Shown here: in pieces, positions 3,030-57,068 of the stretch
Position numbering within the stretch: position 1 is the first letter of the stretch
Layout of the letters: each line of letters starts with the position of its first letter
From: Stomoxys calcitrans
Taxonomy: Eukaryota; Arthropoda; Insecta; Diptera; Muscidae
Direction: 5' to 3'
Length of the DNA: 64,000 nt
NCBI RefSeq assembly: GCF_963082655.1
Contig: NC_081555.1
Location: 90,284,272 to 90,348,271 of the forward strand
Program-made: the position numbers and the translations under genes
Notes under the pieces: generated by a model
Told to the model about the DNA's origin: nothing
Databases searched by the model: none
Seen by the model: only the letters and a program-made list of their open reading frames with translations

Positions 3030-3390
3030 TTTAGTCCATGTTGATCTAAGCTGCCATATAGACCCAACCGCCGATTTAGGGTCGTAGGCCCATAAAAGTC
3101 ACATATATTATCCAATGTCGCCAAAATTTGGGAAATTTGGTCCAAATCGGAACATATTGGGTTGCCCAAAAAGTAATTGCGGATTTTTTAAAAGAAAGTC
3201 ACAAGCTGTGAAAAAATTTGTCAACGCCGACTATATGAAAAATCCGCAATTACTTTTTGGGCAACCCAATATTTCGATATAGCGCTATTGGGCACAAGGT
3301 ATGCATTTTTGCCGAAAGGTGGTTAACATATATACCCGAGGTGGTGGGTATCCAAAGTTCGGCCCGGCCAAACTTAACGCATTTTTACTT
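3030..3390 (+). mobile_element. mini-me-type element, 3' fragment, split by a mariner MITE
   Basis: Contains the ATATAGACC / CCGATTTAGGGT / GGCCCATAAAAG unit of the mini-me subfamily seen at 33245-35190 (here called beta). It ends with the family's right end: CCGAGGTGGTGGGTAT, then the GGCCCGGCC palindrome and TTTTTACTTGTT. It is interrupted at 3157-3269. Confidence 0.75.
3157..3269. mobile_element. 113-bp mariner-derived MITE
   Basis: Both ends carry the terminal inverted repeat TTGGGTTGCCCAAAAAGTAA, flanked by TA at 3155-3156 and 3270-3271. The ends match the mariner at 45199-46462, so this is a short internal-deletion derivative with no coding capacity, mobilised by the larger element's transposase (inference). 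Confidence 0.9.
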
Positions 3391-3410
3391 GTTTTTTATT
3401 ACTTTCGACG
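3391..3410 (+). pseudogene. Left piece of a mariner transposase split by the Transib insertion
   Basis: The last bases before the Transib element read, after removal of the insert and one copy of CGACG, directly into the reading frame that resumes at 8765: TATTACTTTCGACG encodes YYFRR, followed by GLTQQQCID. This shows the pre-insertion target was mariner coding sequence. Confidence 0.7.
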
Positions 3411-4841
3411 CACAGTGGGCCAAATGGCAAAAAAATTGGAAATAAGTCTACAACTTTTTATCTGTTGATTTTAGCCATACAAAATGTTCTAGACATTTGT
3501 AGAGGAGGACATAGGCTTTCAGAAAAGTGCTGTTGTTGGTCCATATCTTTAATACAGGGTGAGCTACAGGGTGTCAAAGTTGACCACTTTTGACTTCTCC
3601 AAGCTTCTGGGGGCCATAACTTTTGATCTACTCAACCGATTTACATGATTTAGGACTCTAGAGAAAGAGCTTGACAAGATCTAAAAAACTTATGCATAAA
3701 GTACCATGCCATCGTGTACTGTTAAGGAGTTATGAATTGTTTAATTTTAAAATATGAAAATTTGGCCTTGGTTTTTTTCAGTGTTTTTTAAATAACTCCG
3801 TCAATTTTAAAGCTATAAACTTCATACTTCACACAAATTATGCCAGCATATGTGTGCATAAAATACAAAAGGAATCACGTGAATATCTTTGGCGGTTTAA
3901 AAATGGCATCGTTTTCAATATGAAAAATATTTTTTTTGTCAAAAAATTGCAAAATTTTTCAAAAAAGATACTCCCATTTCCTTTAAGTTTTCGCAAACTT
4001 TGGCCGTCAAAGCATTATCATTTCTTTCCATTTTCACAAAGTCGAGGTATTAAGAAAAGTTTTAAGTGCTAATTTGGCTAATTTCGATATCAAACAACAC
4101 CGTTATCTTAAGACCAAAATGGCCAATTTTTTTACTAAACTTCAAAAGTTTCTCACTGGAAAAAAAGTTCCACGGGGATTTTTTCGCTTTTTTTGAACTT
4201 AAATGAAAGCTTAAAATGTTCCCAACATTTTAAGGTATGTCTCGCCATATCCTAGCCATAAATGAGATCGTAGCGATCAAAATACTGAAAAAAGTCAATT
4301 TTCAAGTAGTGCTATATTCATTGCTAAAAAACAAGTATTACGTCACATTTTATTGCAAAGATGTTAAATAAACTTTTATTTGGTAACACTTCTTCTACAA
4401 AACACAAAAAGAATCATGGAAATATCTCTATTCTATTCCATTTTATGGAACCGGCAATAAAAAAGTCAATTTTTCAAAAAAGTCGAATTTCCCAAATTTT
4501 GTTTTTGTTGTCCTAATTGCACATGACACACTATAGCCATATTTACGCAACATACCTTATCGTAAAGGAAATTTTCATACCTTTCCAACGATGTATAAAA
4601 CATTTCTCAACTCGGATTCTATCTACTCTAAAATTCATTTACACTTCATTAAACTCTATATAAAAATGTCTATTTGTGAAATGGAACCTTATATGGGGCC
4701 TACACTAAAACATTGATAGATTTGCCCAGGGTTTACAATACAAATGTGTTAGAATAAAAAAAGGTCTCCTGCCAAAGTTTAAAAAAATTGGAATAAAAAT
4801 ATGTGTTTTAGAGCGAAAACACTTCGCATCGGCGTGCGTTT
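3411..4841 (+). repeat. Left terminal inverted repeat of the Transib element
   Basis: Reverse complement of 7329-8759. It starts with CACAGTG, has an A-run nonamer-like block beginning at base 20, and ends where the sequence diverges after GGCGTGCGTTT. The body is AT-rich, with long A and T runs. A 72-codon open frame at 3854-4072 recurs identically in the other arm but looks like chance coding in AT-rich sequence. Confidence 0.95.
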
Positions 4842-4889
4842 ATATGTATATTAGCTACTCCCAAAATAAAAAAGCATTTTAGTTTTGTA

Positions 4890-6932
4890 TTATTTGATTT
4901 TATTCTCTACCAAATAATCTAAGGTATCAAAATTTAAAAGCTCTTTAATTTGAATGGCATCGGGATCGTCCTTATCTATATCGTCACATATTTTTGGTAG
5001 CCATTTAGTTCTGATGCTGTATAGTACCGGATCAGACGATAACAATAAATATTGAAGTAAATCATAATTTTGGTTAAATTTGGTGCTCTTTCGGGTATTG
5101 AAAAGCCGGAACTGTTTAACATCTCTATTACGGGATTCCTGAGCTTCTTCTGTAAGTTCTCCTAACGGAAGTATGTTGTATTCCACAATTTCCTTGCCAT
5201 GATGTAAGACTTTATGTACTGTCGGTGTTAAAGCTTTCCACGAATATAAATCAGATAAAATGTTTTTTGTGTCATTACTATAAGCTTCAAATTTGGTTGA
5301 ATTTATCATCTTTTTGCTATTGATTACAGCCAAAATCACTTTGAATCGTCTTAGCAAGTGTTCATCAAGACCGGTTATTTTAGATGTCGATACGGGGTCC
5401 TCAAAAAACCGCCTTGCCGAGTTGCCATCATTTGTGCTTCCGTATCCGTAAAGAGGTTTATCTATTATAAGTCCCTTTTGTTTAAACTCCAACTGGATTC
5501 GATTCTTCTCTTCCTGCCTCATTTTGTGAAGATCTTGGTTGTTTCTAGCAGAGACATCGCGGTTTCCAGGGCTAGTCCGATATTTAAGGTCATACGATAA
5601 ATGCAAACAATACTCCATGAATCGAATTCTACAGTGCAGGGGCGAAATACCGAAATTGAGCGCATTTTCGTTTACTAAATTTTCATCAGACTTGTCCTCG
5701 AATTGCCCATTCTTCTTGCCACAAATATTGCATCTCCAATTGGACATAACGCCAGTTAATGCGTTTGCCACCTTTCCATCGATCATAGTGAGTTGTAGTT
5801 GAAACGAAACTTTTATATTTCTTCCCAATTGGTTTATAACAATCATGGGTAATGCAGCAATTTCTTCCTTTATTTCGTTCACCAAAGATCGTGTTGTGTT
5901 CCGGTCTTCCTTTGTATACTCAAACCGAATTGGGCGACATAAATATTTTGACCCAGGTGTTCTATTTATCCATATATCTTGAAATGCATTTTCTTTCGAT
6001 GATGAAGATTGGTCCTTGTACAATCTCATTCTCAATGGTACTAATGATGCCATGAAAATTGATGCGAAGTTGGTATCTATTTCTGTTTGTTGCTTATATT
6101 CGGAAAATCCAGATGATCCATCACAACCCCATTTGCTGATCAAAACCACTTCGGAATTATTACATGTGTTCAACTGTTCTTCAGTAAAATTAGAAATAAT
6201 TCTAACAGCTGTATTTTCAACAAGATCAGCAAGTTTCACTCTTGCTTTTAATTCGTCCACGTATATATTTGATGGCACCATTTTCGTCCTGGTGTTGTAC
6301 AATTTATGTTTTGAGGGTAAACAACCCCATCCTTTTTCACGAAGAGCCTTCCTCATTGTTGAGTATTTGTTTCTTGAGAGGCCTAGGTTCAAAATCAGGG
6401 CCAGTGCATCTTCCTCCGTGAATTCTGTAGTCGATTTTGGAGTTGGAATACTTTCTACCATTCTCTTTACCCTTTTCGGAGATGCTAATGGTAAAACATC
6501 GACAATTCGTCCAACATTTTTTGGTTGTGTTTTTAACAATGCTGTTTTGAACGTATCTTTTATTAAATTTGGCGGATGTGCCGCCAATAGTTCCTCTTGT
6601 TTTTTCTTTTTGGTTTTCTCCGTAACTTCGTCGTATGCTTTGCTAGGCCGGCCGGGAATCAGCGGTTTAATTTCAATAAGTAGATCCGATTTCAGCCACT
6701 TCTCATACATTTTGAAAAACTTGATTTTTGCGAATGAACATTCTGGCAACCTTCTCTCAAATGATTTGTAGAATTTTTCAAGTTTGTCTAAAGCGTCTTT
6801 ATTTAGCCTTATTCCATATATGTGGTCCAAAGTGTAAACAAGTTCCTTAAATGACTCCGTGTATGATTTGGAATCATTTTTGATGTCCCATACAATTTTC
6901 GAAAGAGTGGAATACTTCAGTATGACTTCCAT
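4890..6932 (-). CDS. Transib transposase (RAG1-like DDE recombinase), intact, 680 aa
   Basis: Cuts and joins the ends of its own element; the family is related to the RAG1 core of V(D)J recombinase. Seen in the sequence: the first catalytic Asp in CDGSSGFSEYKQ (D271), the second in MIDGKVANALTG (D385), then a CNIC zinc pair (C401, C404), HCRIRFMEYCLHLSY (433-447), STNDGNSARRFF (499-510), ITGLDEHLLRRF (519-530), and HKVLHHG, whose H573 and H578 match the five-residue spacing of the RAG1 zinc histidines. The catalytic Glu should be E596 or E599 in LTEEAQESRN. The D-D distance (114) and the Cys2His2 layout fit RAG1. There are no internal stops and 680 residues is a normal Transib length. The N-terminal 150 residues are Lys-rich and probably bind DNA. 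The gene fills the element's unique centre; its promoter should lie in 6933-7328. No RAG2-like partner is present. Confidence 0.93.
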   Translation of the reverse strand: MEVILKYSTLSKIVWDIKNDSKSYTESFKELVYTLDHIYGIRLNKDALDKLEKFYKSFERRLPECSFAKIKFFKMYEKWLKSDLLIEIKPLIPGRPSKAYDEVTEKTKKKKQEELLAAHPPNLIKDTFKTALLKTQPKNVGRIVDVLPLASPKRVKRMVESIPTPKSTTEFTEEDALALILNLGLSRNKYSTMRKALREKGWGCLPSKHKLYNTRTKMVPSNIYVDELKARVKLADLVENTAVRIISNFTEEQLNTCNNSEVVLISKWGCDGSSGFSEYKQQTEIDTNFASIFMASLVPLRMRLYKDQSSSSKENAFQDIWINRTPGSKYLCRPIRFEYTKEDRNTTRSLVNEIKEEIAALPMIVINQLGRNIKVSFQLQLTMIDGKVANALTGVMSNWRCNICGKKNGQFEDKSDENLVNENALNFGISPLHCRIRFMEYCLHLSYDLKYRTSPGNRDVSARNNQDLHKMRQEEKNRIQLEFKQKGLIIDKPLYGYGSTNDGNSARRFFEDPVSTSKITGLDEHLLRRFKVILAVINSKKMINSTKFEAYSNDTKNILSDLYSWKALTPTVHKVLHHGKEIVEYNILPLGELTEEAQESRNRDVKQFRLFNTRKSTKFNQNYDLLQYLLLSSDPVLYSIRTKWLPKICDDIDKDDPDAIQIKELLNFDTLDYLVENKIK

Positions 6933-7328
6933 AACTTATAAATGTCCTTTACGCCTCTACAAAATATAATGAAGAAAATTTGGATTTTGTTCAAATATTT
7001 ATGCAATATATTCACAATTAATGACCCATTTCAGGTATCAGACGCAATCGTAAAAAGGGGTCCAAAGTGCCTCTTTTTACTTACTCTTCTATAATTATTT
7101 ACCTGGACTCGAATTTGGTTAAAAAAAATGACAATGAATTTTTTATGGGTAGGTTTTTTCACATTCATTGATACGGTGGATTTCCTGGGAATTCGACATA
7201 GCGAAACAGGTAACATTTGTCTGCATCAAATCTTAACACAAATATATATATATATGCAGGTATATTTCTAGGTTACTTTTTATTCAAAAATCATCAGCTT
7301 ACATTAAAAATAGATGTAGGTACTATAC
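6933..7328 (-). promoter_or_regulatory. Transposase upstream region within the Transib element
   Basis: A 396-bp stretch between the transposase start codon and the right inverted repeat. It is the only single-copy sequence upstream of the gene inside the element, so it should hold the promoter. No clear TATA box in a convincing position was seen. No extra coding exon could be supported. Confidence 0.4.
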
Positions 7329-8759
7329 AAACGCACGCCGATGCGAAGTGTTTTCGCTCTAAAACACATATTTTTATTCCAATTTTTTTAAACTTTGGCA
7401 GGAGACCTTTTTTAATTCTAACACATTTGTATTGTAAACCCTGGGCAAATCTATCAATGTTTTAGTGTAGGCCCCATATAAGGTTCCATTTCACAAATAG
7501 ACATTTTTATATAGAGTTTAATGAAGTGTAAATGAATTTTAGAGTAGATAGAATCCGAGTTGAGAAATGTTTTATACATTGTTGGAAAGGTATGAAAATT
7601 TCCTTTACGATAAGGTATGTTGCGTAAATATGGCTATAGTGTGTCATGTGCAATTAGGACAACAAAAACAAAATTTGGGAAATTCGACTTTTTTGAAAAA
7701 TTGACTTTTTTATTGCCGGTTCCATAAAATGGAATAGAATAGAGATATTTCCATGATTCTTTTTGTGTTTTGTAGAAGAAGTGTTACCAAATAAAAGTTT
7801 ATTTAACATCTTTGCAATAAAATGTGACGTAATACTTGTTTTTTAGCAATGAATATAGCACTACTTGAAAATTGACTTTTTTCAGTATTTTGATCGCTAC
7901 GATCTCATTTATGGCTAGGATATGGCGAGACATACCTTAAAATGTTGGGAACATTTTAAGCTTTCATTTAAGTTCAAAAAAAGCGAAAAAATCCCCGTGG
8001 AACTTTTTTTCCAGTGAGAAACTTTTGAAGTTTAGTAAAAAAATTGGCCATTTTGGTCTTAAGATAACGGTGTTGTTTGATATCGAAATTAGCCAAATTA
8101 GCACTTAAAACTTTTCTTAATACCTCGACTTTGTGAAAATGGAAAGAAATGATAATGCTTTGACGGCCAAAGTTTGCGAAAACTTAAAGGAAATGGGAGT
8201 ATCTTTTTTGAAAAATTTTGCAATTTTTTGACAAAAAAAATATTTTTCATATTGAAAACGATGCCATTTTTAAACCGCCAAAGATATTCACGTGATTCCT
8301 TTTGTATTTTATGCACACATATGCTGGCATAATTTGTGTGAAGTATGAAGTTTATAGCTTTAAAATTGACGGAGTTATTTAAAAAACACTGAAAAAAACC
8401 AAGGCCAAATTTTCATATTTTAAAATTAAACAATTCATAACTCCTTAACAGTACACGATGGCATGATACTTTATGCATAAGTTTTTTAGATCTTGTCAAG
8501 CTCTTTCTCTAGAGTCCTAAATCATGTAAATCGGTTGAGTAGATCAAAAGTTATGGCCCCCAGAAGCTTGGAGAAGTCAAAAGTGGTCAACTTTGACACC
8601 CTGTAGCTCACCCTGTATTAAAGATATGGACCAACAACAGCACTTTTCTGAAAGCCTATGTCCTCCTCTACAAATGTCTAGAACATTTTGTATGGCTAAA
8701 ATCAACAGATAAAAAGTTGTAGACTTATTTCCAATTTTTTTGCCATTTGGCCCACTGTG
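7329..8759 (-). repeat. Right terminal inverted repeat of the Transib element
   Basis: Mirror of 3411-4841 and of equal length (1431 bp). It ends at CACTGTG, directly followed by the second copy of the CGACG target duplication. Confidence 0.95.
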
Positions 8760-9030
8760 CGACGTGGATTAACTCAACAACAGTGCATCGATGTACTTTA
8801 ATCAATTTTTGGCGAAGAAGCTCCTTCAAGGACCAGTGTTTATCGATGGTATGATGAATTCAACCGAGGTCGTAGTTCACTCCAAGATGAATTTCGTGAA
8901 GGTCGTCCAAAATCAGTTGTTGTTTCAAAAACCATTGATGCTGTGCGCCAACTGATATTGCAAGATGGTCATATGACCTATCGTGAGATTGAGACAACCT
9001 AAGGCATTAGTGGCACCAGCATTACTTTAC
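8760..9030 (+). pseudogene. mariner transposase N-terminal fragment, interrupted by Transib
   Basis: The frame reads GLTQQQCID, then EEAPSRTSVYRWYDEFNRG, RSSLQDEFREGRPKS and TYREIETT, the helix-turn-helix and linker region typical of mariner transposases. It has in-frame stops after DVL and after EIETT and breaks off near 9014, before any catalytic residue. It differs clearly from the mariner at 45199, so it belongs to another mariner subfamily. The short 5' part lies at 3391-3410. Confidence 0.85.
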
Positions 9031-11054: not shown

Positions 11055-11262
11055 AAATAAAACGAAAAACCTCTCTAACGGTTAACGATGGCATGGTACA
11101 CAGTTGATTATGAAATAGCCCCTTGAAGGTTGAAGAAGGGGAAAGAGGTCAACTTTGTCACCCTGTATCTCACCATGTACAAACGATTTCCTGAAAGTCT
11201 ATATCCTCCTCTAAAATTATTTGAGACATTTTTCACCGCATAGATCGACAGTTAAAAGTCAA
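11055..11262. repeat. Diverged relic of a Transib-type terminal inverted repeat
   Basis: The order and wording follow part of the right Transib arm (about 8445-8720): ACGATGGCAT, then AGGTCAACTTTG.CACCCTGTA.CTCACC, then TTTCTGAAAG.CTAT.TCCTCCTCTA, GA.CATTTT and GA.CAGTTAAAAGT. There are many substitutions and a large deletion in the first part, so this is an older or different copy of the family. Confidence 0.75.
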
Positions 11263-45198: not shown

Positions 45199-46462
45199 TT
45201 GGGTTGCCCAAAAAGTAATTGCGGATTTTTCATATAGACGGCGTTGACAAATTTTTTTGCAGCTTGTGACTCTGTAATTGCATTCTTTCTTCTGTCATTT
45301 ATCAGCTGTTACTTTTAGCTTGCTTTAGAAAAAAGTGCGCGAAATTTTGTTTACATTTGTTTGTTTGGCGTCAATTTTAATATGGAGCCCACAAAGGAGC
45401 ATTTTCGTAATATTTTACTTTATTATTTCCGTAAAGGAAAAAACAAAAAGTTTCGAGATGTGTATGGTGATAAAGCCTTAAAAGGAAGACAGTGTCAAAA
45501 TTGGTTTCGCAAATTTCGTTCTGGAGATTTTTCACTTAAAGATGAGCCACGTTCAGGTCGGCCAAATGAAGTTGTAATGATGACCAAATCAAAGCATTAA
45601 ACGAATTGGATCGTCATGTAACTGAGCGTGAGATAGGAGCGAAGTTAAATATACCAAAATCAACCGTTCATAATCACAAAAAAAGTCTTTGGCTGGTGAA
45701 AAAGCTTAATATTTGGGTACCACATGTATTGAAAGAAATTCATTTAACAAACCGAATCAACGCTTGTAATATGCACCTTAAACGCAATGAATTCGATCCG
45801 TTTTTAAAACGAATCATAACTGGAGATGAAAAATGGATTGTTTACAACAACGTTAGTCGAAAACGATCATGGTCCAAGCATGGTGAACCAGCTCAAACCA
45901 CTTCAAAGGCTGATATCCATCAAAAGAAGGTTATGCTGTCTGTTTGGTGGGATTGGAAGGGTGTGGTATATTTTGAGCTGCTTCCAAGGAACCAAACGAT
46001 TAATTCGGATGTTTACTGTCCACAATTGGACAAATTGAATACAGCCATTAAGGAGAAGCGACCAGAATTGGTCAATCGTAAAGGTGTCATATTCCACCAG
46101 GACAACGCTAGACCGCACACATCTTTGGTCACTCGCCAAAAACTGAGTGAGATTGGCTGGGAACTTTTGATGCATCCACCATATAGCCCTGACCTTGCAC
46201 CATCAGACTACCATTTATTTCGATCTTTGCAGAACTCCTTAAATGGAAAAACTTTCGGCAATGAACAGGCTATAAAATCGCACTTGGTTCAGTTTTTTGC
46301 AGATAAAGGCCAGAAGTTCTATGAGCGTGGAATACTAAATTTGCCAGGAAGATGGCAAAAGGTTATCGAACAAAATGGCAATTATATATTTGATTAAAGT
46401 TCATTCTAAGTTTTATTAAAAATGCATTTACTTTCTTTTAAAAAATCCGCAATTACCCAATA
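45199..46462 (+). mobile_element. mariner element, nearly complete
   Basis: The left terminal inverted repeat starts TTGGGTTGCCCAAAAAGTAA. The right end carries AAAAAATCCGCAATTAC but has lost about 12 bp of the repeat before CCCAATA, which would weaken transposase binding. Between them lies a transposase gene with one frameshift. About 1.26 kb, the usual mariner size. Parent type of the MITEs at 3157 and 50160. Confidence 0.9.
45382..46397 (+). pseudogene. mariner transposase, one frameshift
   Basis: A DDE/D cut-and-paste transposase in two frames: 45382-45600 (start MEPTKEHFRNILLYYF; an in-frame ATG upstream at 45361 is possible but the family starts here) and about 45600-46397. Motifs: helix-turn-helix with QCQNWFRKFRSGDFSLKDE and RSGRPNEV in the first part; in the second, EREIGAKLNIPKSTVHNH, then catalytic ITGDEKW, HQDNARPHTS and YSPDLAPSDYHLF, with the third Asp 34 residues after the second (D34D pattern). 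The total length is 1016 bases including stop, one base short of a multiple of three, so a single-base deletion near 45590 fits. All three catalytic Asp are present. Confidence 0.92.
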
Positions 46463-56400: not shown

Positions 56401-57068
56401 TTAACACTCTATGGCAATGTTGGCACAACTGGAGGAGTATTTTTGCAATTTCTGTACAAGGTCATGAACAGCCTGCTGGAAAACGTTCACTGCTGTCGTT
56501 GATTCAAGGCTTGTTGAGACCACTCTCTCTATATTAGAGCCCAAGGCACCTGGAATTTCCACCAGTACTTCGGGCTTGGCATTAGCCACCAAGCAAATCA
56601 ATGTCTCTCCCATTATTTGAAGATCTTTTCCCAAATCACTGAGCAGCGATTGAGTAGCCGATGGACAGTAACTGGTAACTGCAGCACATTTACTGTCTAT
56701 GTCTTGCAAGAACTCTGACGTACCACCAATTAAGATTTTCATTGCTGTTGCTAATTTTTCCTCAGTCAAAGGACCTTTGCTAATTTCCTTAATGCCAGCC
56801 AACGATTTGTCATAGGCCGCATAAGTCTGGGCAATGATATCGGCATCATTTACAAGATCTGCTAGACACATGGTATGGATGCCTACTCTTATTATACCCT
56901 TTCCGGCTTGGGCCATAAACTCAAAGGGATTTGCTTTAATTGAGTGAACAGTGGTTAGAAATAAGAGATAAGCTGAAAAAAAAGAATAAAAGGAAGAAAG
57001 TATTTCCTCTGTATACATTTTCTACCCTTACCTGTAGTAGCTGCAATTGACAATTTCAAATTTGCCAT
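56401..57068 (-). CDS. Small secreted cysteine protein, two exons, paralogue of the 2265-2923 gene
   Basis: Inferred spliced gene on the minus strand. Exon 1 is 57068-57032 (12 codons plus one base), the intron is 57031-56973 (59 bp, GTAAGG...TTTTTTCAG, phase 1), and exon 2 is 56972-56401, giving 202 residues. An unspliced frame starting at 57018 would lack a proper signal peptide; the spliced one begins MANLKLSIAA and has a hydrophobic core ending near SIKA (residue 26). Cysteines lie at 48, 108, 115, 139, 195 and 202. The 60-residue gap from 48 to 108 equals the gap from 49 to 109 in the other gene, and both proteins have L/MCxAD at the first cysteine and KC at the second. The mature part looks helical, with no membrane segment. 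A TATA box lies at 57129-57136. Family not recognised; an extracellular role is inferred from the signal peptide only. Confidence 0.82.

Follow-up and report, generated by a model that had tools for sequence, protein, structure and literature searches.

A long-armed Transib transposon in about 750 near-identical copies in Stomoxys calcitrans, with inverted arms that most likely copy from each other

Introduction

Transib transposons carry a single gene (PMC4411706), and their ends resemble the heptamer of the recombination signal sequence, RSS (PMC7204232, PMC8355894). The elements transib1-4 of Drosophila melanogaster are 2.2-2.9 kb long, with ends of 40-45 bp, and are annotated in 3-27 copies (PMC10299278, Table 1). 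HzTransib of Helicoverpa zea, represented by the structures 6pqn, 6pqr, 6pqx, and 6pqy, is reported as 3,518 bp with a 489-residue protein, and its excision in vitro leaves hairpins on the flanks (PMC6941560). Here we describe a Transib element in a 64,000-nucleotide stretch of Stomoxys calcitrans DNA (RefSeq assembly GCF_963082655.1, contig NC_081555.1, forward strand, 90,284,272 to 90,348,271), which is called the window and provides the numbering used below unless a contig is named. The element, at 3411-8759, differs from transib1-4, members of the same superfamily, and from HzTransib in its size of 5,349 bp and in its copy number of about 750, and its arms are 1,431 bp long; its transposase of 680 residues has 164 more at the N-terminus than the match to the HzTransib structure chain.

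Long arms also occur in another superfamily. Galileo, a P-superfamily element of Drosophila, has arms of 765/757 bp, up to 4.7 kb, taking in transposase sequence, and its authors propose arm-to-arm transfer of inserts (PMC4168063). It encodes a P-type transposase, makes duplications of 7-8 bp, and only 1 of 191 copies in D. willistoni is nearly complete (PMC4168063).

Results

The element starts and ends with the tip CACAGTG (3411-3417 in the left arm and 8759-8753, inverted, in the right arm) and is flanked by the target-site duplication CGACG (3406-3410 and 8760-8764). The left arm (3411-4841, plus strand) and the inverted right arm (7329-8759, minus strand) align without gaps and with exactly three mismatches over their full 1,431 bp (3704/8466, 4590/7580, and 4756/7414). 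Between them lies a transposase gene of 680 codons with an unbroken frame on the minus strand (6932-4890), separated by a unique 48-bp stretch from the left arm at its end (4842-4889, covered by a motif scan) and by a unique 396-bp stretch from the right arm at its start (6933-7328). A preliminary description, made from the sequence of this locus, had proposed a complete Transib with an intact transposase, a perfect CGACG duplication, and equal arms with three mismatches in the parts compared; all of this is borne out, the last now across the entire arms.

Copies were counted in the whole genome of 1,070,917,216 bases, in which the window is part of contig C4, on both strands, by exact-pattern matches. 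The 35-bp tip gave 771 forward and 765 reverse matches (none for the reversed control), the right inner junction gave 373 and 372 (745), and the left inner junction 375 and 371 (746), and therefore the family comprises about 750 copies. Tip pairing was measured on the first 100 tips listed, all from contig C1 (0.33-65.69 Mb), which form 48 pairs and 4 singles. The span was exactly 5,349 bp in 25 pairs and within 100 bp of this value in 41; five pairs were shorter by more than 100 bp (minimum 3,372 bp), two were longer, and no miniature copies were present among these 48. A genome search with the protein and a count of copies had been suggested in the preliminary description. The best 65 of 1,493 protein matches were all 100% identical over 680 residues, and thus at least 65 loci carry the identical transposase; all 65 are on C1 at 0.33-140.8 Mb, equal scores being ranked in order, and 24 fall within the stretch used for tip pairing. 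Extrapolated from 65 genes in 140.8 Mb, identical transposase genes would number about 500 genome-wide. Queries with two relatives brought up more unbroken full-length frames on C1-C4, as well as a frame of 591 codons on C5 that presumably belongs to the family.

Twenty further copies (L031-L050) were fetched with their flanks. In 19 of these, both tips were present together with a perfect 5-bp duplication, and 12 different duplications occurred in all; in the remaining one, L046, the 5' tip lay beyond the fetched stretch and the tips are 7,024 bp apart. Some of the flanks have host repeats in common, and no two are the same place. The preliminary description had named an assembly artefact of the arms as an objection. 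Our analysis rests on assembled sequence throughout, and an artefact at the window locus alone is very unlikely because 19 other copies, at different places, carry both tips and perfect duplications. Together with the window copy (n = 20), the duplications have the consensus C (18), G (16), any letter, C (17), G (19).

By the features tested, the element is a Transib. Its only protein is a transposase of the DDE type that resembles the RAG1 core and is nearest to known Transib transposases: HzTransib was the best sequence match (E 6.8e-84, versus 5.1e-5 for RAG1L) and was also closest to the predicted RAG1-like fold, well above RAG1, RAG1L, and P transposase. Across the 19 rows of an alignment, the catalytic triad D271 (6120-6122), D385 (5778-5780), and E599 (5136-5138) was conserved, except that one relative has N as the second residue; the protein tree comprised 26 Transib-like relatives, without RAG1. 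Both tips begin with CAC as in an RSS heptamer, and the 5-bp duplications are GC-rich in the window copy and in 19 of the 20 fetched copies. A RAGL element (RAG1L-RAG2L) or a P-superfamily Foldback element such as Galileo would also account for the RAG1-like fold or for the arm length, which is typical of Foldback-like elements such as Galileo and Tetris. This classification is so improbable as to be nearly negligible, given that HzTransib leads both comparisons and that the duplications are 5 bp long compared with the 7-8 bp of Galileo. The convergent RAG2-like gene of RAGL elements was likewise not found among the open reading frames between the arms, where the only other frame of at least 100 amino acids (251 residues) runs antisense within the transposase gene.

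The preliminary description had stated that typical Transib members have short terminal repeats. This holds for transib1-4 and for a second family in the same genome, P0054 (Stomoxys LOC131994136), with at least one exception, Hztransib, which is described as having 'long TIRs' (terminal inverted repeats; PMC1852546); long arms are therefore not unheard of in Transib. The P0054 family is also a young Transib, with the same open frame at 20 places, and differs from the window element in its length of about 3.2 kb, its 14-bp ends (one locus read), and its far lower copy number. Of the 594 residues of its protein, 1-523 have a 100% match at C1:64190400, and locus L053 of this family has CACATTG tips and a CGGTG duplication. 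Within these comparisons, arms of 1,431 bp are, as far as seen, exceptional for the superfamily. The literature covered, with subscription journals and Repbase outside its scope, describes neither a Transib whose arms reach the kilobase range nor a burst of Transib in Stomoxys in the text available. A third Transib group in this genome is about 40% identical to the P0054 family; most of its some thirty listed places share one TAG and one TAA, perhaps reflecting an intron or a dead master copy.

Copying of sequence from one arm to the other most likely explains why the arms of these copies stay alike. We aligned the arms of 30 copies, namely the window copy, 19 of the fetched copies (L046 was left out for its insertion), and L021-L030, in which the initial 327 right-arm positions are lacking. 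Variable positions numbered 24 in the right arm and 18 in the left, and nine of them fell at the same pair position, whereas 0.30 would be expected (hypergeometric P 8.6e-13). After removal of a low-complexity stretch, seven common pair positions were left versus 0.22 expected (P 3e-10), and when partners were slid by up to 30 positions, at most three were in common. At the nine positions the two arms of a copy agreed in 241 of 250 cells, compared with a mean of 198 and a maximum of 215 when left arms were reassigned among copies in 2,000 shuffles. In a comparison over 1,103 bp, opposite arms differed at 0.8 positions when they belonged to one copy and at 2.1 when they were taken from different copies. 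Copying between arms is inferred because independent mutation does not give such a pattern of paired variants.

Two other explanations would dispense with copying. The first holds that the arms are alike merely because the family is very young, in keeping with copies that are near-identical throughout and with the 24 of 33 variable pair positions that changed in one arm only. We judge this improbable in view of the nine pair positions variable on both arms, of the variants at pair positions 287, 1024, and 1354 that are private to one copy and present in both its arms, and of the half-changed arm states at 165, 380, 596, and 1180. According to the second, paired variants are consensus errors of the assembly between two identical arms, which are hard to polish when long, and the assembly alone was examined. 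Yet unlinked copies show identical paired states (position 380 in 8 copies, 596 in 5, and 1180 in 11), and polishing would be expected to erase private variants rather than to write them on both arms, so that consensus errors, too, have little chance of being the explanation.

Several observations nevertheless weigh against arm-to-arm copying or narrow its reach. Of the 30 aligned copies, which had been selected for an identical protein, 29 are on one contig, C1. The one-arm changes at 24 of 33 pair positions mean that copying is either incomplete or slow; the arms have changed to different new letters at pair position 528, and position 518 lies within a T/A run. Assembly polishing could also blur the arms, the variants being known from the assembly.

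An altered copy shows how arms have grown. Among the 100 of 746 left junctions covered here, facing pairs occurred at two places, C1:93662888-93664448 and the copy L055 (C1:84029400-84033750). The latter is a 4,222-bp element flanked by CGACG, and its inverted arms match perfectly over 1,826 bp. From the left tip, the sequence follows the left arm into the transposase gene, where it switches strand and turns back across the final 347 bp of the gene and the 48-bp stretch to the left arm again. At the switch point the partners have 2 exact bases in common and are alike at 6 within 7 bases (read by eye), and a variant at 4754 is present on both arms. Such a structure would be expected from a template switch during repair, and the arms of this copy were extended that way.

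The youth of the family is supported by the identity between copies and by copy number. In pieces spanning the element, 19 fetched copies, including L037 with a 67-bp deletion, were 99.81-99.94% identical to the window copy, and pairwise divergence among the 20 copies, window included, had a mean of 0.108% and a maximum of 0.243%. The preliminary description had derived recent mobility from the similarity of the arms and the open frame; recency stands, but arm similarity is no proof of it because the arms exchange sequence, and we rejected it as an age clock. Private changes numbered 31 among 82,521 cells in the arms and 3 among 13,319 in the unique stretches; at a Drosophila mutation rate of 2.8e-9, these give roughly 134,000 and 80,000 generations, respectively, as an order of magnitude only and with the two arms of an element not being independent of each other. 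The gene had no variable site over 2,043 bp in the 30 aligned copies, versus 4.9-6.3 synonymous changes expected at the arm rate (P 0.007-0.002); this carries no conclusion because the copies were preselected for identical protein and the unique stretches carry 3 changes in 444 bp. Older relatives occur at four places related to P0042 (70-97% identity, all with stops). The family appears to have arrived recently, probably by horizontal transfer, and to have spread in its full-length form. Copy number, identity, and duplications speak of past movement only; mobility at present is plausible.

The poly(A)-signal motifs nearest to the 3' end of the transposase gene lie inside the left arm (4380 and 4354), and TATA-like motifs lie in the unique stretch before the gene (7248-7254) and in the right arm, so a transcript may include part of one arm. 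Long double-stranded RNA, which the preliminary description had proposed could form if the arms are transcribed, would, if folded from a single molecule, require a transcript with both arms. A scan of 6900-8759 for bacterial signals, which have no bearing on an animal host, gave 7 promoters versus 8.6 in shuffles and 3 terminators versus 1.1.

The element interrupts the relic of a broken mariner transposase (3393-3410 and 8765-9016), of which the right flank, 8765-9016, matches SETMAR (E 1.4e-5). When the flanks are joined at one CGACG, the frame reads across the junction; because no more than about 13 bp come from the left flank, this by itself supports the insertion weakly, and the stronger evidence is the perfect duplication in 19 other copies. 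At 11092-11257 on the minus strand (more weakly to 11049), the window is 67% identical to arm positions 46-207 (score 130 versus at most 47 in 100 shuffles), and a 101-bp part has an 82% match in L051, an old and broken Transib relative. This remnant resembles an arm from a related family of greater age; no transposase remnant was detected elsewhere in the window, including beside it (best tblastn E 0.17). Among viral contigs, 27 stretches matched a search pattern and none encodes a relative. Left of the Transib lies a short element with perfect 35-bp inverted ends (3154-3188 and 3238-3272), which by eye is mariner-like, as is the transposase-like open frame of 263 residues at 45606-46397. Two further open frames, of 192 and 205 codons (2345-2923 and 56401-57018), resemble secreted proteins by eye and are perhaps of one family.

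Discussion

Our data point to a complete Transib of about 750 near-identical copies, with a transposase that is predicted to cut at the CACAGTG tips and to paste into CGNCG-like 5-bp sites, and with arms that are most likely matched by copying in the course of repair. We put the probability of this reading at roughly 85%. By analogy with HzTransib, the transposase would bind the tips and excise the element, with hairpins on the flanks, for reinsertion with a 5-bp stagger. An excision gap, or a break in the element, would be repaired from another copy, and 1.4 kb of inverted identity would let the growing strand switch arms. Such switching would let each arm correct the other and would occasionally lengthen them. 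An active transposase and a repair route with arm switching are what we infer from the sequences.

The family thus works like a long-armed element of the Galileo type and yet is a Transib by the features tested, spreading full-length: 41 of the 48 measured copies are near full length, compared with the single nearly complete copy among 191 of Galileo in D. willistoni. A more far-reaching view, that a RAG-family transposon is in explosive invasion with its own repair template, its arms correcting each other, switches lengthening them, and the full-length form spreading without the usual swarm of miniatures, is tentative, and we lean against it.

With about 4 Mb of newly added DNA (750 copies of 5.3 kb), the family forms a sizeable source of new mutations, open to dating, in a blood-feeding fly. 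The paired variants and the copy with extended arms provide sequence-level evidence for arm-to-arm copying and for arm growth. The origin of V(D)J recombination has its living model in Transib, of whose members only HzTransib has, to our knowledge, been shown to be active. Hundreds of near-identical, mostly full-length copies point to a second, probably active Transib enzyme together with its natural ends.
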